Source of the DNA: Calothrix sp. NIES-4101 | GTDB lineage: Bacteria > Cyanobacteriota > Cyanobacteriia > Cyanobacteriales > Nostocaceae | Assembly (NCBI GenBank): GCA_004296455.1 | Contig: AP018280.1 | Coordinates: 2,976,001-3,040,000 of the forward strand | Direction of reading: 5' to 3' | Length of the DNA stretch: 64,000 bases | In this document: positions 1 through 25,079 of the stretch, piece by piece | Position numbering within the stretch: position 1 is the stretch's first letter | How the letters are laid out: each line of letters opens with the position of its first letter | Translations under genes and position numbers: made by a program | The notes under the pieces: model-generated | Databases searched by the model: none | What the model saw: only the letters and a program-made list of their open reading frames with translations | What the model was told of the DNA's origin: nothing

Positions 1-1196
1 AGGCTATCAACTGGCATTCTTCCTGCTGACTGAGTCGGAATTTTGTCGTTAATCTCGCCTAGTTCAGTTAATTGTAGGGTTTGATTCGCAGCAGTCGCAT
101 CGCCTCCAGTAATTGTTATCGCCTGTGTTTCCACCTTCAAGCGATCGCCATTTATCAAAGCGGATGGCAGTGATGCGATATCTACATCACCAATATTGTT
201 TGTTCCTGCGGGCAATGGTGGCAGTGATGCGATATCTACGTCACCAATATTGTTTGTTCCTGCGGGCAATGGTGGCAACGATGCGATATCTACGTCACCA
301 ATATTGTTGTTACCAGCAGGTAGCGCCCCAGTAATTCCCACAGAAGTTACAGGGTTTGCGATCGTTACTTGCCCAATATTATTTGTTCCAGTTGGTAGAG
401 GCGGCAGTGATGCGATATCTACATCACCAATATTATTTGTTCCTGCGGGCAACGAACCGCCTATGCCAAAATTTGCGGGGAAGTTCGAGACTTGAACCGA
501 ACCGATCGCATTCGTCCCGGTTGGCAATGGTGGCAGCGACACAACATCAATGTTGCCAATGTTGTTATCTCCTGCTGGCAGCGCCCCAGTAATTCCTACA
601 GAATCGACAGGGTTAGTAACCTCTACTTTGCCAATAGTATTTACTCCAGTTGGTAACGAACCGCTAATCTCTACAGAGTTTACGGGATTTGCGATCGTTA
701 CTTGTCCAATATTGTTTGTCCCTGCGGGGAGTGGTGGCAGTGATGCCACATCAACATCACCAATATTGTTGTTACCTGCGGGCAACGAATCACCTATACC
801 AAAGCTTGCAGGGAAGTTAGAGACTTGAACCGAACCGATCGCGTTTGTCCCTGCGGGGAGTGGTGGTAATGACACCACATCAACATCACCAATATTGTTT
901 GTTCCAGCAGGGAGTGGCGGGAGTGAGACAACATCAACATCGCCGATATTATTGGTGCCTGCGGGCAGCGCCCCGGTAACACCAAAGCTTGCAGGAAAAT
1001 TGGTGACATCCACCTGCGAGCCACCTTCAGGAAAATTCGTAACCTCCACTTTCCCAATCGTATTTGTTCCGGCTGGGATGGGTGCAGATAGTTCGACTTT
1101 ATTCTCAGTCACAATTGGGTCAATTGTTGTACCCGTGCCCGATGCTTTTATTTGCTTGATATTACCTTCGCCATCTTTTACTTTTAAATTAGCCAT
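1..1196 (-). CDS. Repeat-rich phage structural (fibre-like) protein, C-terminus outside window
   Basis: An open minus-strand frame runs from ATG at 1196 to the left edge without a stop (at least 398 codons). The N-terminus (MANLKVKDGEGN) leads into about 14 copies of a motif of type P-A-G-T-N-x-I-G-x-V, in 18-residue units (LPAGTNNIGDVDVVSLPP) mixed with longer units containing VSNFPASFGI. After the repeats comes a non-repeated part ending at the edge with GRMPVDS, a tail typical of phage fibre or baseplate-associated proteins. It follows the gp36/gp37-like genes, where Mu carries tail genes, so a virion fibre or decoration role is inferred. The opposite strand shows open frames only because the repeats are of low complexity. 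Confidence 0.75.
   Translation of the reverse strand, partial: MANLKVKDGEGNIKQIKASGTGTTIDPIVTENKVELSAPIPAGTNTIGKVEVTNFPEGGSQVDVTNFPASFGVTGALPAGTNNIGDVDVVSLPPLPAGTNNIGDVDVVSLPPLPAGTNAIGSVQVSNFPASFGIGDSLPAGNNNIGDVDVASLPPLPAGTNNIGQVTIANPVNSVEISGSLPTGVNTIGKVEVTNPVDSVGITGALPAGDNNIGNIDVVSLPPLPTGTNAIGSVQVSNFPANFGIGGSLPAGTNNIGDVDIASLPPLPTGTNNIGQVTIANPVTSVGITGALPAGNNNIGDVDIASLPPLPAGTNNIGDVDIASLPPLPAGTNNIGDVDIASLPSALINGDRLKVETQAITITGGDATAANQTLQLTELGEINDKIPTQSAGRMPVDS
166..327 (-). repeat. Three 54-bp tandem units inside the fibre-like gene
   Basis: Units 166-219, 220-273 and 274-327 are nearly identical at DNA level; unit 2 differs from unit 1 at very few positions and unit 3 drifts at its end. Each encodes 18 residues of the fibre repeat. 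The near identity compared with the diverged units further upstream in the gene suggests recent slippage or unequal exchange. Confidence 0.85.
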
Positions 1197-1198
1197 TT

Positions 1199-1864
1199 TT
1201 ATAACAAATCTATATATTGAGAGCTATTTTCATGCGAAAAATCAAAAGATTCTTGTGTTTGCACTGGGTTAGGATCGGGCACTGTCGCGCGAATTGTATA
1301 TCCTCGGTCGAGGGTATTGGAGTCGCGATCGCCTGTTTTCGCCCTCCAAGTCCCGGTTTGTAATTCGACTTCCTGTCCTGGGCGATATGGGCGTACTTGT
1401 CCTGGTGGCAGCCCGTACACGTCATCATCAAGCGATTCGTATAAACCTAAATGCCCCTCTATTTGCTGCATCGCGACAGCGACGACCATTGCGTAGTACC
1501 AAATCTTGTCCTCGACTTTGAGGAATCCTTCCTGCACTGGATAGCATTTATGCGATGGTCCCTTGAGGGGAATAAAACCAGTGACGGCATAGCGAATTTG
1601 GTCGAGCAAAGGATATGCCCCAGTGTGCGATCGCAAATCTTTGAGCATGAGTGAAAGCTCGTATTCAGCAATGACTTCCAGCGTCGCAGGTTGCATCGAC
1701 GTTAAGCGAAATCTGCTGCGCTTATAGCCGATAAATATCTGCCCCTTTCTCCCTGGCTTAGGCGAATCATCTAAATCGCCCGGAAATGGCGAAATACTCA
1801 CTTCAAAAGGAGTGAGTATCGCTTCGATCCGTTTGACTATAGCTGCTTCGGCTTCAAGAAGCAT
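1199..1864 (-). CDS. Mu gp37-like phage protein (DUF1834 type)
   Basis: A 221-residue protein placed directly after the gp36-like gene; its ATG at 1864 overlaps the TAA of that gene (TAATG), a sign of translational coupling. The sequence begins MLLEAEAAIVKRIEAIL and has the pattern of Mu gp37-family proteins (start with two helices, then GYKRSRF, a central beta-rich part and YPLLDQIR). The family is found in Mu-like virions near the head-tail joining genes; its exact role is not settled. An upstream TTG at 1870 is possible but less likely. Family assignment rests on order and pattern, not on an alignment. Confidence 0.7.
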   Translation of the reverse strand: MLLEAEAAIVKRIEAILTPFEVSISPFPGDLDDSPKPGRKGQIFIGYKRSRFRLTSMQPATLEVIAEYELSLMLKDLRSHTGAYPLLDQIRYAVTGFIPLKGPSHKCYPVQEGFLKVEDKIWYYAMVVAVAMQQIEGHLGLYESLDDDVYGLPPGQVRPYRPGQEVELQTGTWRAKTGDRDSNTLDRGYTIRATVPDPNPVQTQESFDFSHENSSQYIDLL

Positions 1865-2307
1865 TACCAATCCCCCAAGGTGTCGCTAGTCCAAAATCTG
1901 CCAGGTGTGAAGAAAATCGCCACATCTCCATCGGTAGAACCTGGTGTGGTGCTGCCATCTGTACCATCTGGAATCCCTGGTAGGCTTGCTTTTCCAGCAG
2001 CTACATCTTTTAAAAAATAAAAAACTAAGTCCCGACGACGTGAGACTTCTTCCCTGGGTTTGTCTTTGTCGAGAATGTAGCGTGCCACATCGCAAGTGTA
2101 ATTTTTTAAAACACCTGGAACCACTACCAATGGTGTGGTGTAGCGCACTTCTAAATAAGCATCAATTTGAGCCTGAGCGTCCGCGATCGCGCGATCAACT
2201 ACAGGCTCATTAATTGTGGTCGCGTCGGGATAATCAAGATTCGATATCTCGATTAACTCCGCCTCTGAGAAGAGAGCGACCATATCAGCAATGGTGGCAT
2301 AAGCCAT
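1864..2307 (-). CDS. Mu gp36-like phage protein (DUF1320)
   Basis: 147 residues beginning MAYATIADMVALFSEAELIE, the typical start of DUF1320/gp36 proteins, followed by a helical core (IADAQAQIDAYLEVRY) and a region with YTCDVARYIL. The family is thought to belong to the head-tail connection in Mu-like phages. A strong Shine-Dalgarno (AAAGGAG) sits 6 bases before the ATG at 2307. The C-terminal third is Gly/Thr/Ser rich (PDGTDGSTTPGSTDGD) and probably a flexible loop before a conserved-looking end. Confidence 0.82.
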   Translation of the reverse strand: MAYATIADMVALFSEAELIEISNLDYPDATTINEPVVDRAIADAQAQIDAYLEVRYTTPLVVVPGVLKNYTCDVARYILDKDKPREEVSRRRDLVFYFLKDVAAGKASLPGIPDGTDGSTTPGSTDGDVAIFFTPGRFWTSDTLGDW

Positions 2308-2322
2308 TTGTTACTCCTTTCT

Positions 2323-2348
2323 ACCCTCGGTAGAATTCTGCCGAGGGT
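2323..2348. repeat. 26-bp palindrome, copy 1 of 3
   Basis: ACCCTCGG-TAGAATTCTG-CCGAGGGT forms a nearly perfect hairpin. It lies directly after the stop of the gp35-like gene and before the gp36-like gene, both on the minus strand. No T-run follows, so it is not a standard rho-independent terminator. The same architecture recurs at 10259-10284 and 25079-25104. Confidence 0.8.
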
Positions 2349-2524
2349 TATGAGGGTGGATTTTCAGGATTGTCGTCCTTGGATGGTTCCTTATCTTTTG
2401 CTTTGGAAGCGACTGGCTTATCTTCGGTAGTCCCAGGGATGGGTTCTTCAAGTCCTACCAAATCGCCGATCGCATACCTTTCGCCATCATGTTTGAGGGG
2501 AGAAATTACTCTAAACTTTGCCAT
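2348..2524 (-). CDS. Small Mu gp35-like protein (58 aa)
   Basis: A 58-residue frame starting at ATG 2524 (MAKFRVISPLKHDGERYAIG) and ending at TAA 2348-2350. The N-terminal pattern of xFRVxxPLKHDGxxYxxGD is shared with short phage proteins located between capsid and gp36 genes in Mu-like prophages; the remainder is charged and Pro/Lys/Asp rich, probably disordered. It overlaps the end of the upstream 74-residue gene by 14 bases, so it is coupled to that gene. Its function is unknown. Confidence 0.65.
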   Translation of the reverse strand: MAKFRVISPLKHDGERYAIGDLVGLEEPIPGTTEDKPVASKAKDKEPSKDDNPENPPS

Positions 2525-2735
2525 CTTTCCTCATCTCATCAATTGTGATTCCTTGATTGGCAAACATTCGGCATTGCTGCAAGGCAAAAAGCGCCATTCG
2601 CTTGCACTCTTCATCATCGATTTCTGCATCGATAGCTTGGGCGAATTCAATGCATAAAGATTGAATCCGCTCGTGCTTACGCTTGCGATCGCTCGATTGA
2701 GTTGGATAGTAGCGAAAATAGTCTTCAACTTTCAT
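2511..2735 (-). CDS. Acb2/Tad1-hairpin-like small protein, candidate anti-CBASS/anti-Thoeris sponge
   Basis: 74 residues from ATG at 2735, with AGGAG 5 bases upstream (a TTG at 2738 precedes it). The sequence reads as a short aromatic N-terminus (EDYFRYYPT), a charged turn (SSDRKRKHERIQ), then two helices forming a hairpin (CIEFAQAIDAEI and KRMALFALQQCRMFANQGI). This layout, with H-x-x-I after a D-R-K turn and a second helix ending M-x-A-N-x-x-I, resembles the phage Acb2/Tad1 hairpin family, which binds cyclic nucleotide immune signals. As I recall, acb2 in some Pseudomonas phages also sits among head genes; here the gene directly follows capsid. Family membership is pattern-based; the binding function is inference. 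Confidence 0.55.
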   Translation of the reverse strand: MKVEDYFRYYPTQSSDRKRKHERIQSLCIEFAQAIDAEIDDEECKRMALFALQQCRMFANQGITIDEMRKDGKV

Positions 2736-2743
2736 CAAAACTC

Positions 2744-3700
2744 CTAAGCAAACGCGCTCTTGAACAAGTAAGCAAACTCAGCACCACAGATATTTTCTTC
2801 AACCTGCATACCTACGCGCACGCGAGTACCACCCTTCAAGCCGATGTCTGGGTCAGGACGCTGTCCGGCGATTCGCGTGCCAGTTTGGGCGGTGAAACCA
2901 TAGGTCATGGTGTATGGCAACTGCACTCTATTTTGGCGAATCAATAGCAAATCTTTGCCCCAAATGCGAGTCAATGAAGGAGCTTGCCCACGGCGATTTT
3001 GGTTGTACCAAGCTGCACCAATTACCACTTTATCTAAGCGGAATAAACGAGCAATGAATTCGCGGGAAGCTATACCACTGCCGCCATCGTTAGCATTCTG
3101 CGCTTGTACAATTTTTGGATGTCTCGACAATGCGGAGAATCCTTCTTCAGAAATCACCATTACATTGGGGCGACGGATGGGAATCAACATCGCCTCTTCA
3201 ATATCGTTGATGGGGTCTGAGTTGGTGTAATCAGAAAACTGAGAAGTCCCAGAAAGGGTGACTTTGTTGGCAGTGGGGTAGTTAGCCGCATTCTGCACCA
3301 AGTTTGCAACCCGTTTTTCGCGATCGAGCATCAGCAGTTCGGTCAACATTTCGGTTGCCATATTTACTGGCGATACACCATTCGCATTAGCAGCGTTATC
3401 GATATCGCTTTGGGGGATGGGGTCTTCAAGTCCGTAGTCTCTAGTCGTGGCTTCGATTTCGTCATAGCCAAACTCGACCTCGTTAGGCTTGCCAGTACGC
3501 CCAACTTGGGTATCAGGGATAGTGAAAGCTTCATTCAGTCTGTATTTCCGCCAACTGTACTTTTGCACAGAACCAGTTGTGATTGGGGGAAGTACCTCAT
3601 CAGCAATGAAATCATTATTCTGATAGCCGATCGCGATCGCGGTTTGGGCTACATCGTAGAAGAAAGGCGCTTCCGTAGAAAAGTTAATAGTATCGGTCAT
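2744..3700 (-). CDS. Major capsid protein
   Basis: 318 residues, ATG at 3700. The protein begins with a stretch typical of phage capsids that build HK97-like shells (APFFYDVAQTAIAIGYQN, then ADEVLPPITTGSVQKYSW), has the E-loop-like region with TGKPNEVEFGYDEIEATT, a helix with LDREKRVANLVQ, and a C-terminus with GTRVRVGMQVEENICGAEFAYL. It follows the protease/scaffold and decoration genes, the usual order. The length fits capsids of about 300-330 residues. The spacing of 8 bases to the next gene (2735) indicates one transcript. Confidence 0.88.
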   Translation of the reverse strand: MTDTINFSTEAPFFYDVAQTAIAIGYQNNDFIADEVLPPITTGSVQKYSWRKYRLNEAFTIPDTQVGRTGKPNEVEFGYDEIEATTRDYGLEDPIPQSDIDNAANANGVSPVNMATEMLTELLMLDREKRVANLVQNAANYPTANKVTLSGTSQFSDYTNSDPINDIEEAMLIPIRRPNVMVISEEGFSALSRHPKIVQAQNANDGGSGIASREFIARLFRLDKVVIGAAWYNQNRRGQAPSLTRIWGKDLLLIRQNRVQLPYTMTYGFTAQTGTRIAGQRPDPDIGLKGGTRVRVGMQVEENICGAEFAYLFKSAFA

Positions 3701-3727: not shown

Positions 3728-4171
3728 CTAGCCCTGCATTACGGACGGCGCGAGATACACAGTCCCAATGTCACCAGCGACACCACTCGAACCTGCGATG
3801 CCAATGATTTGCGCGTTTGCGCCTGCTGCTGGTGCAGCCGGAATCGCCCGTCCAGTCGCATCTGAGGTAAGTTTTTGTCCACGGGTGACGTTTGCCCCAT
3901 AAAGCACATCTGCAATCCCGGAAAGCACTACATCAATCCGTTCTCCCGAGGCGATCGTGACTGCGGGGATAGATGGGGGAGTGTTGCCAGTCTGGATTGT
4001 GCGCTGGCGTTGACCTTGGGGAACTTTGGAAATCCCAATGCTTAAGTCGGTTGCCGCCGCAGCCTGCACCACTGTGTTATCTGCCGCATCAAACTTGATA
4101 ATCCGCGCATCATTGATAGTCCCTGCTGCGGTAAAAGTCTTTGCGAGGCACTCATTTCTGCCCATTGCCAT
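3728..4171 (-). CDS. Capsid decoration/cement protein (DUF2190-like)
   Basis: 147 residues from ATG at 4171 (a second ATG at 4165 is possible). It is rich in Ala, Gly, Thr and Val, with a beta-type pattern: LAKTFTAAGTINDARIIKF, then IASGERIDVVLSGIADVLYG and GQKLTSDATGRAIPA. This is the pattern of DUF2190 proteins, small trimeric proteins that sit on phage capsids. The gene lies between protease/scaffold and capsid with 2-bp spacing on one side and 27 bp on the other. The role is inferred from pattern and position. Confidence 0.7.
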   Translation of the reverse strand: MAMGRNECLAKTFTAAGTINDARIIKFDAADNTVVQAAAATDLSIGISKVPQGQRQRTIQTGNTPPSIPAVTIASGERIDVVLSGIADVLYGANVTRGQKLTSDATGRAIPAAPAAGANAQIIGIAGSSGVAGDIGTVYLAPSVMQG

Positions 4172-4173
4172 AA

Positions 4174-5343
4174 TTATTTGCCTCCCATAACTTCTTGTAC
4201 TGCCTCAGCAAAGGTGATGCTGATACCTTGATTTCTGCGCTCAGTCACAATCGCAGTGGCTTTATCAGCGACTGCTTTTGGATCGGCGGTAGCGGTGGAT
4301 TTAGCCTTAGAAGCGGTAGCAACTTCGGCATACTCGACAACTTTGGGGCGATTTTTTAGCCAGTTTTCAAACCACTCACGCGGAGCTTGGAATTTTTCCT
4401 CGCTAAATTCGATCGCATCTTCAGGAAGGGCGCACATAAATTCAATCAATTCTGCTTTTTCGGCAGGGAAGACTCGCCCTTCACTGGCGCGGGACTCCAC
4501 AAAATCCATGACACGAGCGCGGTTTAGGGCTGCCTCTCTCTCAGCAAGCTGGCGCTCGCGAGCTAAAAGCGAAGCCTCCCGCTCGTTGAAATCAATTTCT
4601 TCATTCATATTTGTTTCGTTTATTTCGTTTATTTGCTCGGCATAACCAATGAATTTGCGCCCCAATTCCTCGATTTTTTCCTGCAATTCAGGGCGCATAA
4701 AATTTTCTATTTGCGCTTCGAGATAGCGAATGCGCGATCGCATATCTTCTATGGCGTAGTCGCTTTCGGGTTTCTGCGATACCGCGTAGTTAGGGATAAT
4801 TTCGTTTGCCTTCTCCAAGCCAAAATCTGCAATCAGCCATTCTCGGAGATTGCGAAGCACCATGTTTTCACCGAAGTCAAGGCAACCGCAGGAAAACTCG
4901 ACCACGCCCTCATCTTCGGAAAATGCAACTGGCTTCAAACCCTTAACTGCTGGAGCCATACCGCCTAAAAAGCCCACATGGCGCAGGTAGTAAGTTCCGG
5001 GGTTTGGGTTTGCTGGAGAATCGGGAGAATAAAAACTTGCAGATATTTTCTTATAGCGCTTGGCTTTTACCGCTTCCTCAAATTCAGGATCGATATCTCT
5101 GAGCTTGGCAATCAGCTTTGCACCAACACGTTTAACTGATTCCACCCAACCATAAGCCGGAGAATTATCGCGAGGGTGTCCAACCACCGCCGGAGCATCA
5201 AATACATCGGGATTGTAGGATTGCGCGATCGCATCTAAATCCTGATTGGAAAAAGACAGTGCGATGCCGTTGCTGCTGGTATGGTCGCCAGCTGCGAAAA
5301 TCTCTATCTCATAGGGATTCCCTCCACCAGTGTGGTTTTTCAT
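4174..5343 (-). CDS. Phage head maturation protease with C-terminal scaffold (Mu gpI/Z-like)
   Basis: 389 residues. Residues 1-150 form a Mu gpI-type protease domain: EIEIFAAGDH, a central PAVVGHPRDNSPAYGWV with the conserved VGHP histidine, then KKISASFYSP and YYLRHVGFLGGMAPAVKGL, where the Ser in ISASF fits the catalytic residue position. Residues 220-310 are a charged coiled coil (RERQLAEREAALNRAR), as expected for a scaffold. In Mu the scaffold Z is also made from an internal start; here the Met-Asn-Glu-Glu near 4608 has no visible Shine-Dalgarno, so I do not call a separate Z gene. The protein cleaves scaffold and itself during prohead maturation. Confidence 0.82.
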   Translation of the reverse strand: MKNHTGGGNPYEIEIFAAGDHTSSNGIALSFSNQDLDAIAQSYNPDVFDAPAVVGHPRDNSPAYGWVESVKRVGAKLIAKLRDIDPEFEEAVKAKRYKKISASFYSPDSPANPNPGTYYLRHVGFLGGMAPAVKGLKPVAFSEDEGVVEFSCGCLDFGENMVLRNLREWLIADFGLEKANEIIPNYAVSQKPESDYAIEDMRSRIRYLEAQIENFMRPELQEKIEELGRKFIGYAEQINEINETNMNEEIDFNEREASLLARERQLAEREAALNRARVMDFVESRASEGRVFPAEKAELIEFMCALPEDAIEFSEEKFQAPREWFENWLKNRPKVVEYAEVATASKAKSTATADPKAVADKATAIVTERRNQGISITFAEAVQEVMGGK

Positions 5344-5602: not shown

Positions 5603-6031
5603 TCAAGGATTCCCGCCCAAATAATCCAGCAGAATTTTGCCCAGTTCTTCCTCGTCTTGGGCAGATGCCCCCATGTATGGGCGTGCTGGTAAATTTCGCT
5701 TGGAATACCCTAGTTGGTGAGCGCGAGCATACTTGGTATTTGTCCCCACTGTCACACTCACCGTTGTCGCCAAGTAGGTAATGCTCGATCGCAATCTCCC
5801 TGATTCAGTCAGTATCTTGGTTCCCTTCTTCCGTTTGCGATAAGCAGCAGATAGCGGTGCCCACGCCACAAAATCAGGGTCATGCTGTCCGCGAAAATTG
5901 TCATCAATTCGCCGCATCATAAACTCACCCATTGAAGCGAAAGCTGGGCGAAGATTCTTGATTCGCGATTCGATTTCTCGCAGTTCGGCACGAGCAAGCA
6001 AGTCGTCTATAGAGATAATTAACTCAGTCAC
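5603..6031 (-). CDS. Phage virion morphogenesis protein, Mu gpG-like (tail completion)
   Basis: 142 residues. The pattern fits the gpG/virion morphogenesis family: an N-terminal helix pair, FMMRRIDDNFRGQHDPDFVAWAPLS, then KILTESGRLRSSITY, and the end GYSKRNLPARPYMG. The family caps or completes the head-tail joint in Mu and P2-like phages. The frame starts with GTG at 6031; no clear Shine-Dalgarno is visible, and the upstream bases contain a short direct repeat (TGTGACTGTTA/TGTGACCGTTA), so the start is not certain. Confidence 0.8.
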   Translation of the reverse strand: MTELIISIDDLLARAELREIESRIKNLRPAFASMGEFMMRRIDDNFRGQHDPDFVAWAPLSAAYRKRKKGTKILTESGRLRSSITYLATTVSVTVGTNTKYARAHQLGYSKRNLPARPYMGASAQDEEELGKILLDYLGGNP

Positions 6032-6556: not shown

Positions 6557-7380
6557 CACTGCACTCTCATTTCTTCACCATTCAAAATAATCTCACAATC
6601 GCCAGAATGATTGAACAGCATCGCAATTAAGTCTTGGCGCTGGCGATCGCTTAATCGCAAATGCAATGTTTGTGTTGAATACAATACTGGTCTTGGCATT
6701 GATGGCGGCATGTCTATATGCCTTTCCGCATAAGAAGTTTCTCGTGTGTAGCTTATTTCAGGGCAAGAAGTTGATTCAACGCCAATACTTACAGGAAAAG
6801 TAGCAGCCATTCCCTCAATAGTTGCGGCGATTACGGGTGTACCTGGCAAATCGCTAACATCAAATCCAAATGACTGCGAATTTGGCTGTAGATAATCTTG
6901 ATTCACTGCATCCCAGGCTCTTAATCCTTCATTAGTGCGAACTTCGACAAAGGATTCTTCTTCGATAGCTTTGCCTTCCCTCGCCTCAAAATGTTTACAA
7001 TCACTACAGTCACCAGTGGGATTTATCGCACACTGCAAATGTCGGGAAAGAGCATTATTGATGCAATTGCGATCGCCTATGCAATCATCTTCATGCTCGA
7101 TTTGGATTGTTTCTGTCCAATGCGATCGCTCCAAATGGATAGAATTATGTCTGTAAGCCGTATCAATAACAAATCTTCTTGTAAACTCACTATTTCCGAA
7201 AATTGCCCCTGTCAGTGCTTGATTAACGAGCGATTCCTTGGTTCTTTGAATTTCCTCCGCCGTCACTCGCATAGCTTCCTGAAATCCAGGACTGTTAATT
7301 GTATCCTGAAGTTTAGCGAACACCTCTTTTACCTTACTTGTATCGGCGTTAATATTAATAGCTGATTGGTCATCTTCCAT
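6556..7380 (-). CDS. Unknown phage protein with cysteine motif like cyanobacterial DUF6464
   Basis: 274 residues, ATG at 7380, overlapping the end of gpF by 11 bases. The first 70 residues are helical and carry QEAMRVTAEEIQRTKES. A central Cys cluster (DDCIGDRNC, then CAINPTGDCSDCKHFE) resembles the C-x-N-P-x-G-x-C-x-x-C motif of the small cyanobacterial DUF6464 proteins, which could bind a metal. The last 70 residues contain LHLRLSDRQRQDLIAMLF. The position between gpF and gpG suggests a virion or assembly role. I know no phage family with this combination. Confidence 0.6.
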   Translation of the reverse strand: MEDDQSAININADTSKVKEVFAKLQDTINSPGFQEAMRVTAEEIQRTKESLVNQALTGAIFGNSEFTRRFVIDTAYRHNSIHLERSHWTETIQIEHEDDCIGDRNCINNALSRHLQCAINPTGDCSDCKHFEAREGKAIEEESFVEVRTNEGLRAWDAVNQDYLQPNSQSFGFDVSDLPGTPVIAATIEGMAATFPVSIGVESTSCPEISYTRETSYAERHIDMPPSMPRPVLYSTQTLHLRLSDRQRQDLIAMLFNHSGDCEIILNGEEMRVQ

Positions 7381-8146
7381 TTTTCAATCTCTCCCGTACC
7401 TGTTTCTGTAAGCCTTTCGGCATACGTGCGATCGCATTATTTAATATAGCTTTTCTATCCTTTTTCTCACTCGCTCCCGGTGCTGTTGTAAATCCCGGTT
7501 CAGCGATGGGTACACCGCCAATGCTGGGGATTTTCTTTGATTCCCCAGTTACCTTATCTTTAATAGTTACAGTCTCTGTTGGTGGTTCACTCACCGTTAA
7601 CCCCTCCCTCTCAATATCGCGCGGGGACAAGGCTAAAACGGTACAGCGACAGCCAAACCCACTGGGCGGATATGAATTCTTCCAAAAATCGCTATCTGCC
7701 GGAAATATTTTTCCGTCTAAAGCTAGGTGATGTGGGCGCGGGACACGGCTATCACGATGTCGCCACATCCAATATGGTCGCAATTTCAACATCTCCGGGT
7801 CAGTTTGCTGCTTATATCTCCCCGCCTGGTAGGCGTTTCGCAAATTCTGCATGAATATCAACTGCTGTCGCCACGGTTTTGACGCAGGATTCCAACCCGT
7901 GCGATCGCTTGCCGCTTCAAATCCTTTTTTAAATTCTTCGTAGGTAATCCCTTCTTCTAAAGCCTTTTGTATGAGTTGGTAAGCGCTATCCAAAAGTTCA
8001 GCGCTCGTCACTCCAGCAATTGCGAACACATAGTCGTTAGCTTCGTCTGCAAAATCATCCCAGGTTGAACTAGGTAAAGGCAATTTAGCTTTAAAAAACT
8101 GAATTGCCTCGTCAAAACTTAAGCGAAAAGGGTCGATATCTGACAT
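7370..8146 (-). CDS. Minor head protein, Mu gpF / SPP1 gp7-like
   Basis: 258 residues, ATG at 8146. The central part shows the typical head-morphogenesis signature: helices with RQQLIFMQNLRNAYQAGRY, then MWRHRDSRVPRPHHLALDGKIF, ending with PPSGFGCRCTVLALSPRD. The family is a minor capsid component brought in with the portal. The first residues (MSDIDPFRLSFDEAIQFF) are closely similar to a broken reading frame at 8983-9033 on the other side of the HNH gene, which shows that the 5' end of this gene has been duplicated or replaced. Shine-Dalgarno is weak (GTAGAG inside the end of the HNH gene). Confidence 0.85.
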   Translation of the reverse strand: MSDIDPFRLSFDEAIQFFKAKLPLPSSTWDDFADEANDYVFAIAGVTSAELLDSAYQLIQKALEEGITYEEFKKGFEAASDRTGWNPASKPWRQQLIFMQNLRNAYQAGRYKQQTDPEMLKLRPYWMWRHRDSRVPRPHHLALDGKIFPADSDFWKNSYPPSGFGCRCTVLALSPRDIEREGLTVSEPPTETVTIKDKVTGESKKIPSIGGVPIAEPGFTTAPGASEKKDRKAILNNAIARMPKGLQKQVRERLKNGR

Positions 8147-8152
8147 TGAACT

Positions 8153-8920
8153 CTACTGGTTGTTTTTCTCGCGATGGTCAAGCGATGCTTCTATAGACCA
8201 GCCATGATTTAATCGATACCAAATTCTTGTTGCAGGTATACCCAAAACTCTTGACCACTCGGCGATGGTTAAAGATTTCCCCTGATATTCGTATTTTGGA
8301 TAACTTCTGCAAGGTCTCCTAATCGCATCTTGCACAGACCATCCCATACGCTGAATCCGATCTCCCAGTAATGAAGCAGACACACCAGTGGCTTCACTAA
8401 TCTCCCTAACAGTCATCATTGCACCATCATATTCATATCTCAGATTGTTTCTTCGATTGTTTGCTTGTTGCCTTGAATTTGCCCATCGACAGTTTTCAGG
8501 CTCATAGTCCCCGTTATTGTCAATACGATCAAGACTCATTCCCACAGGAGCCTCACCCATGTCAGCTAAAAAATTTTCAAAACTATCCAGCCAGCGCTGA
8601 CAAACCTTGATGCCTCTTGCTCCGTAATTTTTATATCCACGGTCACTGGGGCTTGAGCATCTGAATATCATCCTACTCCAAATTTTAAAGGTTCTAGTTT
8701 CACTCATCCCATGCGTCTTGTTTGCAGAACTTATTCGCGATCGCCTCCAACAACCGCACGATACAGTATCACCTGATTTGACACTAGAGACTCTAATAAC
8801 TTTTTCTGTGCCACAATCACACCGAAAATACCAATACTCGCCTCTATTCTTATGTTCAGCAAATCTCAAAGCAGTCAAATACGCGAATCTTTGACCAGCT
8901 AAATCGGTTATCTTATACAT
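8153..8920 (-). CDS. HNH homing-type endonuclease with DNA-binding repeats
   Basis: 255 residues from ATG at 8920 (a TTG at 8977 gives 19 more residues). Order: an N-terminal zinc-ribbon-like part (FRCDCGTEK and SCGCWRR), an HNH core with KNYGARGIKVCQRW, MSLDRIDNNGDYEPENCRWA and QANNRRNN, then two HTH-like repeats (VREISEATGVSASLLGDRI and IAEWSRVLGIPATRIWYRL) like those in intron- and free-standing HNH endonucleases. The gene sits between a broken gpF start (8983-9033) and the intact gpF. TATAAT on the minus strand near 8982-8987 may give it its own promoter. A palindrome-like pair CCCCAG/CTCTGGGG lies in its leader. Confidence 0.8.
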   Translation of the reverse strand: MYKITDLAGQRFAYLTALRFAEHKNRGEYWYFRCDCGTEKVIRVSSVKSGDTVSCGCWRRSRISSANKTHGMSETRTFKIWSRMIFRCSSPSDRGYKNYGARGIKVCQRWLDSFENFLADMGEAPVGMSLDRIDNNGDYEPENCRWANSRQQANNRRNNLRYEYDGAMMTVREISEATGVSASLLGDRIQRMGWSVQDAIRRPCRSYPKYEYQGKSLTIAEWSRVLGIPATRIWYRLNHGWSIEASLDHREKNNQ

Positions 8921-8982
8921 ACAGCCTGCTTGTGTTAGGTTGTCACGCCCCAGAGTGTTAGCGCACTGCTGGGGCAATTTTA

Positions 8983-10294: not shown

Positions 10295-10612
10295 TTAAGA
10301 CTGGACGTTTTCTGGTAGAGGATTTGGTGCGATCGCCTCTGGCTCCTGACTGATAAAGGTAAAAGATTCCAGATTTCTCACGCCAGATATCAAGTCTAAA
10401 TTTGTGGTTTTTTCGGGGTCGATTAAGTGACCATAGTGCCCACGAGCTTGGGACAACTCTCTCAAAAACACCTCCTCTAAAAACTCTTGCATATCTTCCT
10501 CAGTATCATCTGCAAACGCAAATTCTAAAGAGATTGGTTTATCAGGTTCGTTATGTGGTGTAAGTACTGCCAACTTGCCCAGTCCCAGGCTATGAGCTAA
10601 ATCAATCCTCAC
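10295..10612 (-). CDS. Unknown phage protein downstream of portal
   Basis: 105 residues starting with GTG at 10612, overlapping the portal gene by 11 bases. It is acidic with ISLEFAFADDTEEDMQEFLEEVFLRELS in its centre (given in parts: DDTEEDMQEFLEE) and a possible alpha-beta fold. Coupling to the portal gene suggests that it works with the portal or its C-terminal domain. No family is recognised. Confidence 0.5.
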   Translation of the reverse strand: MRIDLAHSLGLGKLAVLTPHNEPDKPISLEFAFADDTEEDMQEFLEEVFLRELSQARGHYGHLIDPEKTTNLDLISGVRNLESFTFISQEPEAIAPNPLPENVQS

Positions 10613-13508
10613 TAATTAGAACTCCCACAGTGTATTCAAAGTGTTCTCTATCGATTTCGTGAAATCTTCGCATGTCACGGCTAGAAGCAAAATTATCAAC
10701 TCCCATAGATAAAACTTCAGTGGGGTAGCCTCTTTTTCCGTAGATTTTGCCCACATAATCGCTGTGAAACCTACCTCTGTAGCCTACTTCGTCATCTTTG
10801 TAGGTCTTATCTCCAGTTATATCACGTAGTTTTTCTAGTTTTTTAGATGTGGCTCTACTTTCAATCCAGTCGCGGGCTGATTCTGCCGCCCCTGGGGTTT
10901 GATACTCTATGTGGTGTGCATATTCGTGGAATAGGGCTTTTCTACTCCTATTCCAGCCAATATCTATTGTGCCATTATTGGAGGCATAAGCGCGATCGCT
11001 ATCTGCACTAATATAGTAAGCGCTCATTCCCCCTTTCCCACCTGCCAAGCGGAAAACTTCTTGAAGACCTGCCTGGACTTCTGGGTCGGTTGCTAGGTTG
11101 CCTTTGTACGAAAGCGAAGCTGCCCATTTTTGAGCCACTTCTTCACTAATGCCATTTTTCTTGATAATCGCTTCCTTCAACTCTTCAAATTTCTTTGCCT
11201 GAGCCTCATTGTATTTGAGAGACTCTTTCGTCCATTCAGCTTCGGCTTGGCGGAATTCTTTGAGAATTTTTTTTGATTCCTTTTTGTCAGTAATTCTCCC
11301 CTCAACAACATCAAGCATTTTCTCGCTCGCTTGGTTTTTCTTTTCCTGAGCCGCTAAAAGTGACGCTGGCGGAGATGCGATCGCTTTGAGGTATTTTTCG
11401 GAGAATTGCCGCCCAAGTGCGATGACTTCCTGGTGATTCTCACGGTTGATTTTGTAGTTTATAGTGTCGCCCCCACCGGAACCACCGCCAGTAGATGTTT
11501 CGCGTTTTTTGATCTCAGCAATCTTTTTCTTCGCTGCAGCGCCCGGAGTTTTCCGGCATTGTTTGGTGGCGCTAATGCAACTTCCACCGCAAGGTGTGCC
11601 CTTGGTACAGTTTTTGGGTTTAGTGCTTTTTTTTGCAGCAAAATCAAGATTTTCAGAGTAGTTCGCAACCTCAGTCGAATTTAGCAACTGATATACAACT
11701 TCATCCTCAGTAATTACAAATCTGTAGCTCTTGGTTAGACTTTTGTCTACTTTGTCCTCGAATCTACCTACGATGGTTTCACCATCAATGTAGGCTTCTG
11801 GTATCGCGGTAATTCCATCGGTGTACCATTCCTCCAGTATTTCTTTGATTTCGAGGAGTGATTTTGCGTTGGTTATACGATCGCGTTCTGCGAATTCCGA
11901 CTCATTTGGAGATTCCTGAAGTATTTCCCATCGCCCCGCCGCTTCGCTGGCTATCATCGCTTGTCCCATTGCTTCCGCAAATCCTTGGGTGTCCATCTGC
12001 GGGTAGGATTCGAGGATTTTTTGCTGTGCCTCCTCAAAGTTGCTGGAAGTTGCGATCGCATTTCGTACCAAGCTCATCCAATCAGCAAATATTGGTGCGG
12101 TTTGTTTTTGTAATTGCTCTGTGTAGCTGTCAATTCCGTCCTTGTCGTCAGCAAAATTGATGGCATTTAGCGGAAGCGATCGCGTGGTGGAAAGAGTGGG
12201 AGCCTCAACCATGTCAGTTGCTTGGGCATTTACACCCGAATTTGCTAAAAACTCTTCCTGCGAAACCTCGCCGCTTTGCTCTTTGACTTCTTCATAATCA
12301 TCGCCGTAAATTTCCTTGACAGCTTCTGGTTTGAGTTTGAAACCCATATCAAACAGCGTTTTATCGCGCTGCACACGGCTATCGAGGTTTTCTTGCTCGC
12401 CAAAGTCTCGCCACAATCGCGGTGGTTTGGCGTTGGGGAGATTGTAGTCAATTATCCATTTGATAAGCGTGCGATTGAGGGTATCGCTGAGTAAATCAGC
12501 GTCAGCCTTTGCAAGTTGCATTCTCACTTCATTGTGGGTTTGTGCAGCTGCATAACTCCCGCGATCGCCAATTTGCGTGGACAGTGTTTCCCCCAGAACT
12601 GCCTTGGATATTTCCGAATCCATGTAGTTCGCTAGCCCCTCATAGCACTGGATGCTACCGCTACGACTAGCTTCTAGCAGCATCACCTCCATGCCATCGG
12701 GAATTGATACGCCCGCATCAGTTGCGATCGCATTTAGTGCCCTGAGTAAAGTTGCCTTCTGTTCCTGTGTTGCACCCTTGGGGTATTTACCGATTGCCGT
12801 GGGCGAGGCAAATTTGTCAACAAATTGCAGCCAGAATTTAATACCCTGCTTTTTAAAAAATACATTCCACCACAAAGTACGCCCAACACCTACGCCATAA
12901 GGGTTGTCGTCAACAGCGCCAAAGGAATGCACAAAAAACTTGCGGGGATATTCCTGCTGCACTGGTATTCCGGTAATCATGTCGTTAGGCGTGAGCATCC
13001 GCATTTCCCATTTTTCAGTCGCCTCATTGACACCAAATGGGAAACGCTCTTGATTGCGAGTCTTTACCTGTGCTGGGAAAATCTCATTCCCGTCTTGCGC
13101 CCAGATAATTTCAGCAGGCTTGTAGCCTTTCAAAATCGCATCCAGCAAGTTGAAGCAAAGCGCGTCAAATCCCGTTGCCACGACATCGTCATCCTCCGCC
13201 CGCGCTGCCAGCGAGGATAAGTGGTATTTAACCATCTCCGCAGCCTTTTTATCATCACGCTTGCTACTGGCTGGCTCTACCTTCCACTCGCGGGAAATTA
13301 CCTGGAGGAAGCGCTTATTTAATACCGAGTAGGTGTGCCCGTCCTTTTTTAAATCCTCATACGCCTTGTATTGTCCCCTTCCCCTGGTATTGAGTACATC
13401 ATCGGGATTCTGATAAGTCCCGGTATAGGCTTGCAAATATAAGGTATGGTCGCGCCGAATTGACGCGATTTCTTTTTTATTTATAGGGGTTGGACGCTTG
13501 GAAGGCAT
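10602..13508 (-). CDS. DUF935 portal protein (Mu gp29-like) with long C-terminal metallopeptidase-like extension
   Basis: 968 residues; Mu-type portals usually have about 500. Residues 1-430 are the portal: NKRFLQVISREWKVEPAS, FVHSFGAVDDNPYGVG, AVLGETLSTQIGDRGSYAAA. Residues 440-610 are helical (EEAQQKILESYPQMDTQGF). At about 632-655 lies a Cys-rich motif (CTKGTPCGGSCI then CRKTPG). After a Gly/Ser linker and a coiled-coil part comes a domain with HEYAHHIE at about residue 860, an HExxH zinc-protease motif, with an upstream part containing SAYYISADSDRAYAS. The frame is continuous. The portal forms the DNA channel of the head; the last domain may be packaged or injected. Protease activity is inferred from the motif. 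Confidence 0.85.
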   Translation of the reverse strand: MPSKRPTPINKKEIASIRRDHTLYLQAYTGTYQNPDDVLNTRGRGQYKAYEDLKKDGHTYSVLNKRFLQVISREWKVEPASSKRDDKKAAEMVKYHLSSLAARAEDDDVVATGFDALCFNLLDAILKGYKPAEIIWAQDGNEIFPAQVKTRNQERFPFGVNEATEKWEMRMLTPNDMITGIPVQQEYPRKFFVHSFGAVDDNPYGVGVGRTLWWNVFFKKQGIKFWLQFVDKFASPTAIGKYPKGATQEQKATLLRALNAIATDAGVSIPDGMEVMLLEASRSGSIQCYEGLANYMDSEISKAVLGETLSTQIGDRGSYAAAQTHNEVRMQLAKADADLLSDTLNRTLIKWIIDYNLPNAKPPRLWRDFGEQENLDSRVQRDKTLFDMGFKLKPEAVKEIYGDDYEEVKEQSGEVSQEEFLANSGVNAQATDMVEAPTLSTTRSLPLNAINFADDKDGIDSYTEQLQKQTAPIFADWMSLVRNAIATSSNFEEAQQKILESYPQMDTQGFAEAMGQAMIASEAAGRWEILQESPNESEFAERDRITNAKSLLEIKEILEEWYTDGITAIPEAYIDGETIVGRFEDKVDKSLTKSYRFVITEDEVVYQLLNSTEVANYSENLDFAAKKSTKPKNCTKGTPCGGSCISATKQCRKTPGAAAKKKIAEIKKRETSTGGGSGGGDTINYKINRENHQEVIALGRQFSEKYLKAIASPPASLLAAQEKKNQASEKMLDVVEGRITDKKESKKILKEFRQAEAEWTKESLKYNEAQAKKFEELKEAIIKKNGISEEVAQKWAASLSYKGNLATDPEVQAGLQEVFRLAGGKGGMSAYYISADSDRAYASNNGTIDIGWNRSRKALFHEYAHHIEYQTPGAAESARDWIESRATSKKLEKLRDITGDKTYKDDEVGYRGRFHSDYVGKIYGKRGYPTEVLSMGVDNFASSRDMRRFHEIDREHFEYTVGVLISED

Positions 13509-13555: not shown

Positions 13556-14041
13556 ATGCGTACTTGGCTGTTATATCGCGATCGCGCAACTTACAATTTT
13601 TACGATTTACCTGATGGGGACTGGAAGTCAGAACCGGATATAGGCTTTTGGTACGACGAATTAACTAACATGCCTTGCTTGGCGCTTCGGAATATGCGTA
13701 ATGGTTTTTACTGGCGAGGGTACGTAGCCTACAATCCTGAGCATTTTTCCCCAACACGCGATCGCTCTAAAATTTCGGTGCATGGAGGGATAAGCTTCAT
13801 TGGTCCGATGGAGGTTTATCCAACAGTGTTGCCAGAGGAGATACAGGATAAAACCTGGATTGGCTTTGATTGCCGCGAACTTTGCCACGGGGATACTCCC
13901 CGGTGGCAAGATTCGCGCCAAGTAGCACCAGGCGATTACTGTAGAGGTGAGTATCGTAATCTTGATTTTGTACAGGAAGAGTGCGGCAGGCTAGCAGTTC
14001 AATTGGCGAAAATGCGACTAGAGATGTTATTGCCCGCTTAA
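13556..14041 (+). CDS. Conserved phage protein of unknown function, reversed within late module
   Basis: 161 residues, ATG at 13556. It holds GGISFIGPMEVYP, WIGFDCRELCHGDTPRW and YRNLDFVQEECGRLAVQLAK. The pattern HGG-xxF..., W-x-GFDC-x-H-x-GD-x-P and Y-R-x-L-x-F-V-x-E-E-x-x-x-LA-x-QL is widespread among phage proteins of unknown function. The gene points rightward between portal and terminase and overlaps the terminase end by four bases, so the two transcripts converge. This orientation and the small size fit a moron or regulated accessory gene. Confidence 0.7.
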   Translation: MRTWLLYRDRATYNFYDLPDGDWKSEPDIGFWYDELTNMPCLALRNMRNGFYWRGYVAYNPEHFSPTRDRSKISVHGGISFIGPMEVYPTVLPEEIQDKTWIGFDCRELCHGDTPRWQDSRQVAPGDYCRGEYRNLDFVQEECGRLAVQLAKMRLEMLLPA

Positions 14042-15615
14042 TAATCCCGCAGTCCAGTGGAAACGCGATCGCGTCCCAAAGATTCAAACTCAATCGACTT
14101 GGGCTGGGCTATAAATCCGTACACAGTGGCATCGCCAGCGTTGGGAGAGCGATGGAGGCGCTGTATAGTTTTCTTTTTGTCCTCAATTTTGATTTTCCCA
14201 GTAGAGGTCTCTTCGTAGTAGGTTCCGGCTAAATCCTCCATGAGCATTTCTTCAATTTCTCCTAATGGTGCGATCGCAATTTCCTCATTGCGGAAGGCTT
14301 CCCGCAGCATCCAATAGTCTTCGGCTTTGCGATTGGCGTAGAGTGCAGGCTCGTCGGCAGCTTCCCCCCAATGCCTTGCCTCGGCTGGCTGCTCATCTTC
14401 AAGCATTGCTGATAAAGCCCCCGCACCAACACCAATCACATCCACCACCACCAAACCACCATAGGCTGTAATCAGCGATTTACCTGCACCCGCAGCCCTT
14501 GAGACATCAAGTCTGTCGCCCTTTGTCGGGATTGTCTTAGCCGCATACAGCACCACACCTCGCCAAGTTGAGGTGGCATGGTCGTCACCGCCGTCGCCGA
14601 CATCAAGCCCGTGACGGTAATGGTGGTAACTTGCCAGTTCATCATAGTATTCGGGGCGAGCATCGTAGCGAGCGCGAGCCGCCAAGAACCAGGAGCGGGG
14701 CACAATTGAAGCTTCGCTATCAACTGGAAATAATCCCTCAACCCGACTTTGCCAGTAGGCAGAAGATTCGGATTTCTTCTTACGGATGCTTTCAATCCAG
14801 GATATAGACACCGCGCCGGGTACGACTTCCTTTGTACACCAATCAGGCCAAGCCTCAGTCGGTAGTACCTCCCCGTCAGCGTCAAGGATTACTTCGGCAA
14901 CTTCAGGCTTGAGCCTATGGATACCATCTGGGCATTTCTCGTAAGCCCAGGCAACGTTTGGGTGTGACCATGCAGCAATTCGGATATGCGATCGCACGCA
15001 AGCCCGTTGGAATGAACCGCCGCCAGCGATGGGGTTTCCAATCCTGAGCATTCGGTTCTTTGCGCCCGTGGTGCAGGACTCCGCACCGCCGTCGATTTCC
15101 TCAGAGATGCCGCAAGCTTCATCCTCAATTACTAACAGCTTGTCGTTATGTATACCTTGGAATGCGTTGGAATTAGTTGGTGTGGCGGTAAAACCAAACC
15201 CCCGCGCCTGTTCAGATACCCGCAGGAATTTCATTCCTAACTCGCCCGGAAGCCTAAGTTTACCGTGGATTTTGCGGACTTCCCCCCAAATAATCTGCTC
15301 AACTTGGCGATCGGTTGGTGCAGTGGTAATTACCAACCCGCCTACGCAGTAAATCCAGTACAGGATTAGGCGCGAAGCTATAAACGATTTGCCCGCACCG
15401 TGACAAGCCTGAACATTGGTTTCCCGGTTGTCGCGTACTGATAGACAGATTTCCTTCTGCTTATCAGTCAGAGTCTCCCCCAGTTCCTTCTCAATAAATC
15501 CCACTGGATCACTGGCGTAAGCGGAAAAATCCGATTCCCCTGCTAATTCCAATCCCAATGCGATCGCACAAGCTTCAGCAAATTCCTCACGCTTATCTAC
15601 GCTCTTTCTCGCCAT
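14038..15615 (-). CDS. terL: Terminase large subunit
   Basis: 525 residues, ATG at 15615. Walker A CHGAGKS is at residues 71-77, and Walker B with the catalytic Glu (LLVIEDEA) is at about 160-167, both in the ATPase half. The nuclease half shows GLDVGDGGDDHATSTW and VVVDVIGVGAGA, acidic residues of the RNase H-like fold. The protein drives DNA into the head and cuts it. It overlaps the small subunit gene by 19 bases. Length and motifs are complete. Confidence 0.92.
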   Translation of the reverse strand: MARKSVDKREEFAEACAIALGLELAGESDFSAYASDPVGFIEKELGETLTDKQKEICLSVRDNRETNVQACHGAGKSFIASRLILYWIYCVGGLVITTAPTDRQVEQIIWGEVRKIHGKLRLPGELGMKFLRVSEQARGFGFTATPTNSNAFQGIHNDKLLVIEDEACGISEEIDGGAESCTTGAKNRMLRIGNPIAGGGSFQRACVRSHIRIAAWSHPNVAWAYEKCPDGIHRLKPEVAEVILDADGEVLPTEAWPDWCTKEVVPGAVSISWIESIRKKKSESSAYWQSRVEGLFPVDSEASIVPRSWFLAARARYDARPEYYDELASYHHYRHGLDVGDGGDDHATSTWRGVVLYAAKTIPTKGDRLDVSRAAGAGKSLITAYGGLVVVDVIGVGAGALSAMLEDEQPAEARHWGEAADEPALYANRKAEDYWMLREAFRNEEIAIAPLGEIEEMLMEDLAGTYYEETSTGKIKIEDKKKTIQRLHRSPNAGDATVYGFIAQPKSIEFESLGRDRVSTGLRDY

Positions 15616-16061
15616 CTCTCACTCAACTGCCGAATAAATTCTTCGGGCGAGATATCAAGCGCGATCGCCATATCAGCTAAATCGGCTGCATTCTTTGGTA
15701 CAAGTTTGTTTCGCAGTTCAATCAGCTTGCACAAGCCTGTCGCCAGCGAACCCAGTCCCCGCGTGTCTTCCAGCCCTCCAGAGAAATACCCAGAGAGCGA
15801 TTGAATGGCATTTTCCAATATTTCAACTTCATCAAGATTTCGATGCACCCATTCACCCCTAGGGTGAATTTTCATATTCTGGGGTTTCTGGGGCGCAACC
15901 CCAGTTACCCTAGATTCTTTGAGGGCAACCCATCCCTCAGCCGATGCTCGCGCTTCAATCGTGGATTTACCTACGCCAAAGCGTAAGGCAAGACTGGCAT
16001 AGGTTTCAGACTCTTCCAGGTACGCTTTTTTGATGTTTTCCCAGTCGATTTTCTTGGGCAT
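15597..16061 (-). CDS. terS: Terminase small subunit
   Basis: 154 residues, ATG at 16061. The N-terminus has an HTH for DNA recognition (DWENIKKAYLEESETYASLALRFGVGKSTIEARASAEGW in total; core SLALRFGVGKSTIEARA). The C-terminal half is helical (LIELRNKLVPKNAADLADMA), suited to ring formation. Position immediately before terL supports the call. The sequence class is the short HTH-type TerS rather than the lambda Nu1 type. Confidence 0.8.
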   Translation of the reverse strand: MPKKIDWENIKKAYLEESETYASLALRFGVGKSTIEARASAEGWVALKESRVTGVAPQKPQNMKIHPRGEWVHRNLDEVEILENAIQSLSGYFSGGLEDTRGLGSLATGLCKLIELRNKLVPKNAADLADMAIALDISPEEFIRQLSERWRERA

Positions 16062-17210: not shown

Positions 17211-18068
17211 TTAAGCAGCAAGAGATTCATAAAATCGCTCCTTTGAAAAATCGTCAAGGCAAGTCTCTGCCAAATTCCAAATCGATTTAATATCGGCTTC
17301 ATCTCCGAAATTAGCGACTAATCCGCAAACTTCGGAAAAATTTAGATTTACTTCTTTTGCTAAAACCTCAATGGCGTGATTTAATAGTTGCTTGACTTCT
17401 GTAATGGAAACCCCAAGAATCACTGACGCGTTCCCCAATGATTCGTTATTCAGATAGATAATTTCCAAAGCCCTCCTTGCTAAAGGTGGGTTTATTTTTG
17501 CGATCGCGTTTTCAATCTCGCTCCAAGCCTTGTCTATGGAAGCCAAAGATAGCGATTCCTTCGCTGCGATCGCTTCTCCCAATGTCAAATCCTCACTGCC
17601 AGGAATCCTCATATCAAGTTTCAATTGGTTATTACGATTTAGAATTGCAATTTCCAATTCGCTGAGAATTTCTTCTGAAATCCCCAATTCTTGGCGCAAT
17701 AGATTGCGATTGGGATTAATACCTTTCCTCTCGTATCTCCTAATAATTTGATTCAATTTTGTTGCGTAATCTTGATATTTGCGGTGGAGCCTCACCGTGC
17801 TACCCTTATCCCGCATATAGTGCTGGATTTCTCCGCGAATATACGGCATCGCAAAACTTGAAAAGAAATCATTCTCGCTAGGGTTGAACCGCTCTACGGC
17901 TTTGGTAAGCCCGACTACGGCTAACCCGTAAGCATCCTCATAGTCAATATTTGCGCTCGCTACTGATTGATGAGCAACTTTGCGAGCTAATCCCAAGTTT
18001 TCCTCGATTAATTGATTGCGAAGCGATAAACTGCGGGTTTCGTAAAATACTAAGAATAGGTTTTTCAT
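17211..18068 (-). CDS. Prophage-encoded sigma-70 family factor
   Basis: 285 residues from ATG at 18068 (an upstream in-frame start at 18134 would add 22 residues). Region 2 is clear: NQLIEENLGLARKVAHQS, DYEDAYGLAVVGLTKAVERF and FSSFAMPYIRGEIQHYMRDK, of the SigF/SigB group. Region 3 (LHRKYQDYATKLNQI) and region 4 (LEIIYLNNESLGNASVILGVSITEVKQL, in parts) follow, then a 50-residue C-terminal tail. Region 4 is weak. The gene precedes the late module and may direct RNA polymerase to late promoters; this is inference. Confidence 0.82.
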   Translation of the reverse strand: MKNLFLVFYETRSLSLRNQLIEENLGLARKVAHQSVASANIDYEDAYGLAVVGLTKAVERFNPSENDFFSSFAMPYIRGEIQHYMRDKGSTVRLHRKYQDYATKLNQIIRRYERKGINPNRNLLRQELGISEEILSELEIAILNRNNQLKLDMRIPGSEDLTLGEAIAAKESLSLASIDKAWSEIENAIAKINPPLARRALEIIYLNNESLGNASVILGVSITEVKQLLNHAIEVLAKEVNLNFSEVCGLVANFGDEADIKSIWNLAETCLDDFSKERFYESLAA

Positions 18069-18224
18069 TGAAGTATAAACACGACTGGGATTATACTTAA
18101 AATGCCACCACTGGGCGGGTGGCGAGAATCGCAAACCTGCGGATATTTAAATCAGAGGTTTGCGAAATCTTTATTTAAATACTGTGAATACTTAAGTAAG
18201 TTAATATACACAAGTTTCTACCAC

Positions 18225-24236: not shown

Positions 24237-25079
24237 ATGAAAAAAGCCATTGTCCGTCTCTCTCCTGACCAAAAATTAATCGATATGTGGCTTCATGGTC
24301 GCCCTTTGTCAACGCAGTCAGAGTATCGCCGGGACATAAAGTGTTTTTTGGAGTTTACTGAAAAACCTTTGCCCGAGCAAAAGCTTGAAGACTTGCAGCG
24401 CTATGCGGTAATGCTGCAAACAAAAAATCTTAAGGAAAGAACCATAAAGCGCAAAATAAATACTATCAAGTCATTATTCTCGTTTGCAGCCAAACTTCAA
24501 TACATTCGCTTCAACGTAGCAGCAGCCCTCCGACTTCCCAAAACCGAATATACGATCGCACCGCGAATTCTCCCCCAGCGAGAAATCCTCAAATTAATTA
24601 ATGCCGCCCAATCACCACGGGACACGGCTATATTGAAGCTTTTGTACGCCACAGGGATGCGAGTAAGCGAGCTTTGTGGCTTGAACTGGGAGGATTTCAT
24701 CGAGCGTGACGACGGGCAAATCCAGGTGAGCATTCTCGGTAAGGGCGGGAAACGTCGAATTGTCCTGGTTCCCGACTCGGCATGGGTGGCAGTTGAAAGC
24801 CTGGGGAGGGGAGAGGGTGCGGTGTTTCTCAGCAGCAAAGCGAAAAGGTGCGATCGCACCACAATCCACCGAATCATTAAAGCCGCAGCTGTAAAGTCAG
24901 GTATAAATCCGAAGATATCCGCTCACTGGCTACGACACGCAAATGCCTCCCACGCCTTATCCCGTGGAGCTTCCATCGCCTTGGTAAAAGAAACTTTGGG
25001 ACATAGCAGCATCGCCATTACTGACGTGTACGTACATGCCAACCCCAACGATTCAACAGGTAATTATTTGGGGATTTAA
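24237..25079 (+). CDS. int: Tyrosine recombinase (prophage integrase)
   Basis: 280 residues. The catalytic set is complete: Arg142 (ATGMRVSELCGL), Lys near 169 (ILGKGGKRR), His230-x-x-Arg233 (HWLRHANASHA), His256 (LGHSSIAITD) and Tyr265 (VYVH). The N-terminal 100 residues are the core-binding SAM-like domain (STQSEYRRDIKCFLEF). The size is like XerC/D and small phage integrases without an arm-binding domain. It lies 1 kb from the tRNA-Val fragment and probably catalyses recombination there. Its stop codon touches a 26-bp palindrome. Confidence 0.93.
   Translation: MKKAIVRLSPDQKLIDMWLHGRPLSTQSEYRRDIKCFLEFTEKPLPEQKLEDLQRYAVMLQTKNLKERTIKRKINTIKSLFSFAAKLQYIRFNVAAALRLPKTEYTIAPRILPQREILKLINAAQSPRDTAILKLLYATGMRVSELCGLNWEDFIERDDGQIQVSILGKGGKRRIVLVPDSAWVAVESLGRGEGAVFLSSKAKRCDRTTIHRIIKAAAVKSGINPKISAHWLRHANASHALSRGASIALVKETLGHSSIAITDVYVHANPNDSTGNYLGI

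Follow-up and report, generated by a model that had tools for sequence, protein, structure and literature searches.

A sequence-divergent Acb2/Tad1-hairpin protein encoded next to the capsid gene of a cyanobacterial prophage, a candidate sponge for immune nucleotides

Directly behind the major capsid gene of a cyanobacterial prophage, a first-pass annotation placed a small gene whose product it took for an anti-defence sponge of the Acb2/Tad1 type, carried by a Mu-like prophage and expressed with the late genes. The locus raises the question whether the protein belongs to this family and, if so, what it may bind and what its place beside the capsid gene may mean. The Acb2/Tad1 family, phage proteins that mop up nucleotide signals of bacterial immunity, is well described, and the main question raised by the protein encoded in the window (the whole 64,000-nucleotide stretch analysed here) concerns its divergent pocket.

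The hairpin gene and its prophage

The hairpin gene is read on the minus strand from 2735 to 2511, stop codon included. It starts with an ATG and encodes 74 amino acids, MKVEDYFRYYPTQSSDRKRKHERIQSLCIEFAQAIDAEIDDEECKRMALFALQQCRMFANQGITIDEMRKDGKV, and an in-frame TTG one codon 5' of this ATG gives an alternative of 75 residues. The capsid gene ends at 2744, leaving a gap of exactly 8 bases (2736-2743) to the hairpin ATG, and a Shine-Dalgarno-like AGGAG and the capsid stop codon overlap (junction sequence GCTTAGGAGTTTTGATG). The reading frame described at this place is real. At its 3' end the gene shares 14 bases with a 58-residue ORF, as judged by the coordinates. The hairpin gene and its counterpart in the viral contig L020 differ by 21, 7 and 42 substitutions at codon positions 1, 2 and 3, respectively, and since these concentrate at the third position the gene is under purifying selection at the protein level. 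This bias, the Pfam match (E=1.3e-11) and the presence of homologues with 43-63% identity in independent viral contigs together argue that the ORF is beyond chance. With regard to the proposed expression with the late genes, the gene order and the RBS overlapping the capsid stop suggest co-expression, and translation of the hairpin gene may be coupled to that of the capsid gene.

On the late strand the genes run from the terminase small and large subunits through the Mu-type portal, MuF, neck, head protease and cement to the capsid, and continue with the hairpin gene, the 58-residue ORF, gp36 and gp37 (Table 1). The IMG/VR provirus L012 (61,497 bp) is the same prophage with 100% identity. When its coordinates are extrapolated, the prophage finishes on the right with the tyrosine integrase and begins on the left roughly 37 kb outside the window. 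The Mu-like character claimed for the prophage holds for its head genes (portal, MuF, gp36 and gp37), but its edge carries a tyrosine integrase and no Mu transposase was detected, as the four genome matches to the Mu transposase C-domain (Mu-transpos_C) are all far away and none lies within the estimated prophage limits. The cyanobacterial setting was borne out by the photosystem II core proteins encoded in the host genome.

Table 1. Features at the hairpin locus and in the surrounding prophage (window coordinates)
Feature	Coordinates	Strand	Evidence
Gp37-like protein	1199..1870	-	Pfam PF09646 E=2e-16
Mu gp36-type head-tail adaptor	1864..2307	-	Pfam PF07030 E=8e-31; PHROG_195
58-aa ORF, weak DUF7210 match	2348..2524	-	Pfam PF23843 E=7e-4, under cut-off
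Hairpin gene of the Acb2/Tad1 family (74 aa), cyclic-nucleotide sponge as proposed	2511..2735	-	Pfam PF24729, PHROG_1454, AlphaFold2
Junction: AGGAG RBS overlapping capsid TAG stop, with 8-base gap before hairpin ATG	2736..2748	-	Direct sequence reading
318-aa major capsid protein, immediately 5' of hairpin gene	2744..3700	-	PHROG_1005 major head protein E=2.2e-86
Head cement/scaffold protein	3728..4171	-	PHROG_673 E=3e-26
Head maturation protease	4174..5343	-	PHROG_976 E=1.9e-99
Virion morphogenesis / neck protein	5603..6031	-	Pfam PF05069 E=2e-26
Mu F-like minor head protein	7370..8146	-	Pfam PF04233 E=1.6e-17
Mu-type portal protein with C-terminal extension	10602..13508	-	Pfam PF06074 E=6.9e-107
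Terminase large subunit	14038..15615	-	PHROG_2 E=8e-27
Terminase small subunit	15597..16061	-	PHROG_1206 E=1.5e-7
Tyrosine integrase, prophage right end	24237..25079	+	Pfam PF00589 E=1.6e-34

Three further observations concern the same stretch. Between the genes for MuF and the portal there is an HNH endonuclease gene (window 8153-8977), possibly for a homing endonuclease in the head module. A sigma-70-like factor gene of the prophage (window 17211-18134), upstream of the late genes, is possibly a late-gene regulator. On the plus strand at window 113-1272, repeated peptide blocks (e.g. SPILFVPAGNGGSDAISTSPILFVPAGN) resemble the product of an imperfect array of DNA repeats.

Family membership and predicted fold

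In a profile search for the Acb2_Tad1_hairpin family (Pfam PF24729) the protein scored 44.9 bits, above the curated gathering cut-off of 27, while T4 Acb2 (vs.4) reached 71.4 bits with the same model. The protein also matched PHROG_1454 (function unknown, E=9e-7); no model matching it was found in NCBIfam or PADLOC. Used as a single-sequence query against the PDB the window protein gave only chance matches and found no solved structure. In searches of solved structures with profiles, one built from four relatives reached Tad1 at 4e-4, and a 22-relative profile reached Acb2 homolog 43 (9ptq) at E=4.5e-7 and Tad1 at E=0.0026. An HMM-HMM alignment with Acb2 of the T4/PaMx type and of phage p26 gave a probability of 94.8%. 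Across the 22-sequence alignment F7, A32, A59 and N60 are invariant, and H10, P11, H21, A48 and I63 nearly so, the window protein having a Tyr at position 10. The aromatic N-terminus (Y6, F7, Y9 and Y10) and the motifs H21-x-x-I24 and M57-x-A59-N60-x-x-I63 that had been read from the sequence were all recovered. As a separate observation, PHROG_1454 and PF24729 pick out the same proteins, and the former could take the name Acb2-type sponge family.

The AlphaFold2 single-chain model, made with the 22-sequence alignment as input, predicts with a pLDDT of 90.8 an all-helical protein in which a short N-terminal helix (3-7) is followed by two long antiparallel helices (15-38 and 42-70). The published layout of Acb2 likewise combines a short helix with two long ones that run antiparallel (PMC10419184, PMC12043709). 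The residues D16-R17-K18, first described as the turn of the hairpin, are present, but in the model they sit at the start of helix 1 and the inter-helix turn falls at about 39-41. When the model was searched against PDB folds, T4 Acb2 (7uq2, Z 6.6) and a Pseudomonas-phage Acb2 (8h2x, Z 5.5) were retrieved, and unrelated helical hairpins scored equally high, so that the fold match is compatible with Acb2 rather than decisive. Taken together, the curated profile, the profile-to-structure sequence matches and the predicted secondary structure support the family part of the first-pass annotation, and identify the protein, at the level of sequence and model, as a sequence-divergent member of the known Acb2/Tad1 family.

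Compared with solved members, the window protein shares with Acb2 (T4 Vs.4, PDB 7uq2; Pseudomonas phage p26, PDB 8h2j; homolog 43, PDB 9ptq) the Pfam model, the aromatic residue at the Tyr8/Tyr11 position and a phage origin, whereas identity over the aligned part is only ~15-20% and the length is 74 instead of 88-94 residues. The C-terminal two-helix hairpin of Tad1 (PDB 7uav, 8kbh), with its LEEAxxWxN-type helix 2, is also similar, but the N-terminal antiparallel beta-sheet domain of Tad1 is missing from the all-helical model, and Tad1 is longer (about 125-138 residues). Acb2-type proteins of actinophages (PHROG_1454; Marshawn gp5, Jace gp19) are 27-34% identical and have the motif set F.(Y/F)HP...H..(I/V)...A.(N)..I in common with the window protein; one of them, StellaBean gp101, is annotated as a 'cyclic nucleotide sequestering protein', and related actinophage genes have already been annotated as Acb2-type (PMC13348362, PMC11953737). 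Relatives with 43-63% identity are encoded on the viral contigs L020-L024 and L051. In a maximum-likelihood tree these six, the window protein and a protein of the Arthronema cyanophage TR020 form a clade of eight on a long stem branch with support of 99/97. The TR020 phage is of a different type (Saffermanviridae) and its protein is about 28-31% identical to that of the window; on its own it scores 12.9 bits, under the PF24729 cut-off, and on its long branch its exact position in the tree is unsure.

Ligand-pocket residues and host defences

In the HMM-HMM alignment the aromatic residue that stacks on the cyclic dinucleotide, Tyr8 in T4 Acb2 and Tyr11 in PaMx33, corresponds to Tyr9 of the window protein, a position that is Tyr or Phe across the family and His in two relatives. 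The basic residue at PaMx33 Lys26 or T4 Lys23, which presumably contacts the ligand phosphate and may or may not be family-defining, is not kept and aligns with Gln25. Within the window clade this position is Gln, Asn (as in TR020) or Gly, whereas most actinophage-type relatives have Arg. At the position of T4 Phe82 the window protein has Thr64. In T4 Acb2, both the binding of dinucleotides and the activation of Panoptes are disrupted when Tyr8 is mutated (PMC12657218, PMC12657230), and Phe82 stacks on the bound dinucleotides (PMC12657218). The pocket for cyclic dinucleotides is thus not retained in its known form, and because the Lys26-equivalent is Gln, Asn or Gly, the ligand specificity of the clade may differ from that of classical Acb2.

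The host genome was searched with single family models for a link with CBASS, Panoptes, Thoeris and type III CRISPR. SMODS, AGS-C, ThsB-TIR, mCpol and Cas10 palm gave no match, and the only hits were to TIR_2 domains (ten matches). Among 99 genomes of the host's cyanobacterial family, CD-NTase (SMODS) matches occur in 14 and ThsB-type TIR matches in 39, although only four of the latter are strong matches within short proteins, including one from the same genus. Absence of the target system from a lysogen does not speak against a role in anti-defence, because the system may be present in other hosts. As a side observation, seven of the TIR_2 matches are clustered on one host contig (G000:C4:30041-41084), possibly a TIR-based defence island.

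These data bear on whether the protein, its dinucleotide pocket having changed in the clade, could be a sponge for a different signal from the dinucleotides of classical Acb2, such as cyclic trinucleotides or TIR products of the gcADPR type. We regard this as possible, though clearly short of probable. It would fit with the loss of the Lys26- and Phe82-equivalents on a long, well supported stem branch, with a host genome that has TIR_2 matches and no CD-NTase or ThsB match, and with the similarity between the Tad1 hairpin and helix 2 of the family at large (REKALALT.LEEAMMWANA). However, the beta-sheet domain that the window protein lacks helps to form the gcADPR pocket in Tad1 (PMC12043709), other basic residues (K18, R19 and R23) might substitute for the lost lysine, and the presence of TIR domains does not prove Thoeris.

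Gene placement among relatives and the proposed role

The position directly 3' of the capsid gene is shared with TR020, and in L020 the hairpin gene lies two small ORFs 3' of the major head protein gene. In L051, which shares with the window the families of its protease, scaffold, capsid and gp36 genes, it follows gp36, as it does in the Mu-type head module of the more distant L044. It comes after the terminase large subunit gene in L022 and L023, near a Sak4-like gene in L024 and, in a less clear setting, downstream of a helicase gene in L021. Thus head or packaging regions hold the gene in six of the eight clade members, with an exact slot that varies. Neighbourhoods outside the clade differ further: in actinophages the gene is close to the left end or, as in Jace, next to the endolysin gene, in L041 it also adjoins the endolysin gene, in T4 the genes clustered with vs.4, not far from regB and tk, are small and for the most part uncharacterised, and cyanophage S-2L (MW334946.1) has a more distant, unannotated family member of 71 residues between two tail genes (L046:5001-5216). 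A strictly conserved slot beside the capsid gene was ruled out by the placements in L051 and L044, in L022 and L023, and in S-2L.

Both the immediate 3' position with overlapping translation signals and the predominance of head and packaging modules in the clade would also be expected if the protein were a small part of the head of Mu-type phages, or a factor in head assembly, that has the hairpin fold and binds no nucleotide. We find this unlikely. L051 and L044 have homologous head modules of the Mu type but carry the gene after gp36, and in other phages relatives are found in regions for tail, lysis or recombination and in the left arm, so that no syntenic place is kept. Since placement varies between related phages, the comparison argues for an accessory anti-defence gene inserted in late operons, and not for a head component.

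Above its cut-off PF24729 was found in only one of 386 sampled cyanobacterial genomes, the window's own. Such rarity, together with the altered pocket residues, could mean that an Acb2-like gene has decayed here or lost its function, but the frame is intact, the RBS is strong and the divergence from L020 is biased to third positions, and we consider decay very improbable. Weak matches in nine cyanobacterial genomes, all below the cut-off and inside ORFs of 544-1688 residues, were treated as chance, as was a match found by the genome-contig scan in an Aeromonas stretch (L011) on the opposite strand of a larger ORF. A plasmid search with the window protein gave no match.

The interpretation that we favour, and hold to be probable, is a hexameric sponge of the Acb2/Tad1 family for a host immune nucleotide of CBASS and/or TIR-based Thoeris, made together with the capsid. 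By analogy with solved members, the small all-helical protein would form hexamers that capture the second-messenger nucleotide by which an abortive-infection system of the host signals, so that the effector would not be activated. Read from the late operon of the capsid, the sponge would be made as capsid protein accumulates. The anti-defence effect proposed in the first-pass annotation is thus retained as what such an analogy would predict. The link to the capsid is of interest because Thoeris, a TIR-based system, is triggered by capsid proteins (PMC11312562), and because phages deleted for acb2 acquire capsid mutations that help them to escape CBASS (PMC10419184). A bolder and rather doubtful extension is that the clade, including an isolated cyanophage and the window prophage, has a pocket rebuilt for a different immune nucleotide and, in part of its members, translates the sponge in step with the capsid gene. 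If so, the antidote would in that part of the clade be made together with the very capsid protein that triggers the alarm. The capsid-adjacent gene and the altered pocket residue in this way pose two testable questions, whether the sponges of cyanophages have a different signal and whether their production is tied to that of the capsid.

With the present data the known range of the Acb2/Tad1 hairpin family comes to include a prophage of a cyanobacterium. TR020 and S-2L add isolated cyanophages, in which the genes are unannotated or mis-annotated. A description of the family in cyanophages was not found in the literature searched, chiefly open-access papers. In TR020 the annotation of the hairpin gene (L013:5998-6222, MT457475.1) reads 'putative protein disulfide-isomerase' and places the start codon 69 bases too far downstream; the full ORF starts at L013:5998 and ends within the next gene. 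Hairpin-family genes are also found in Paenibacillus phages such as Heath (MH460826.1:35115-35312), where they are annotated as 'phosphomannomutase', probably a mis-annotation.
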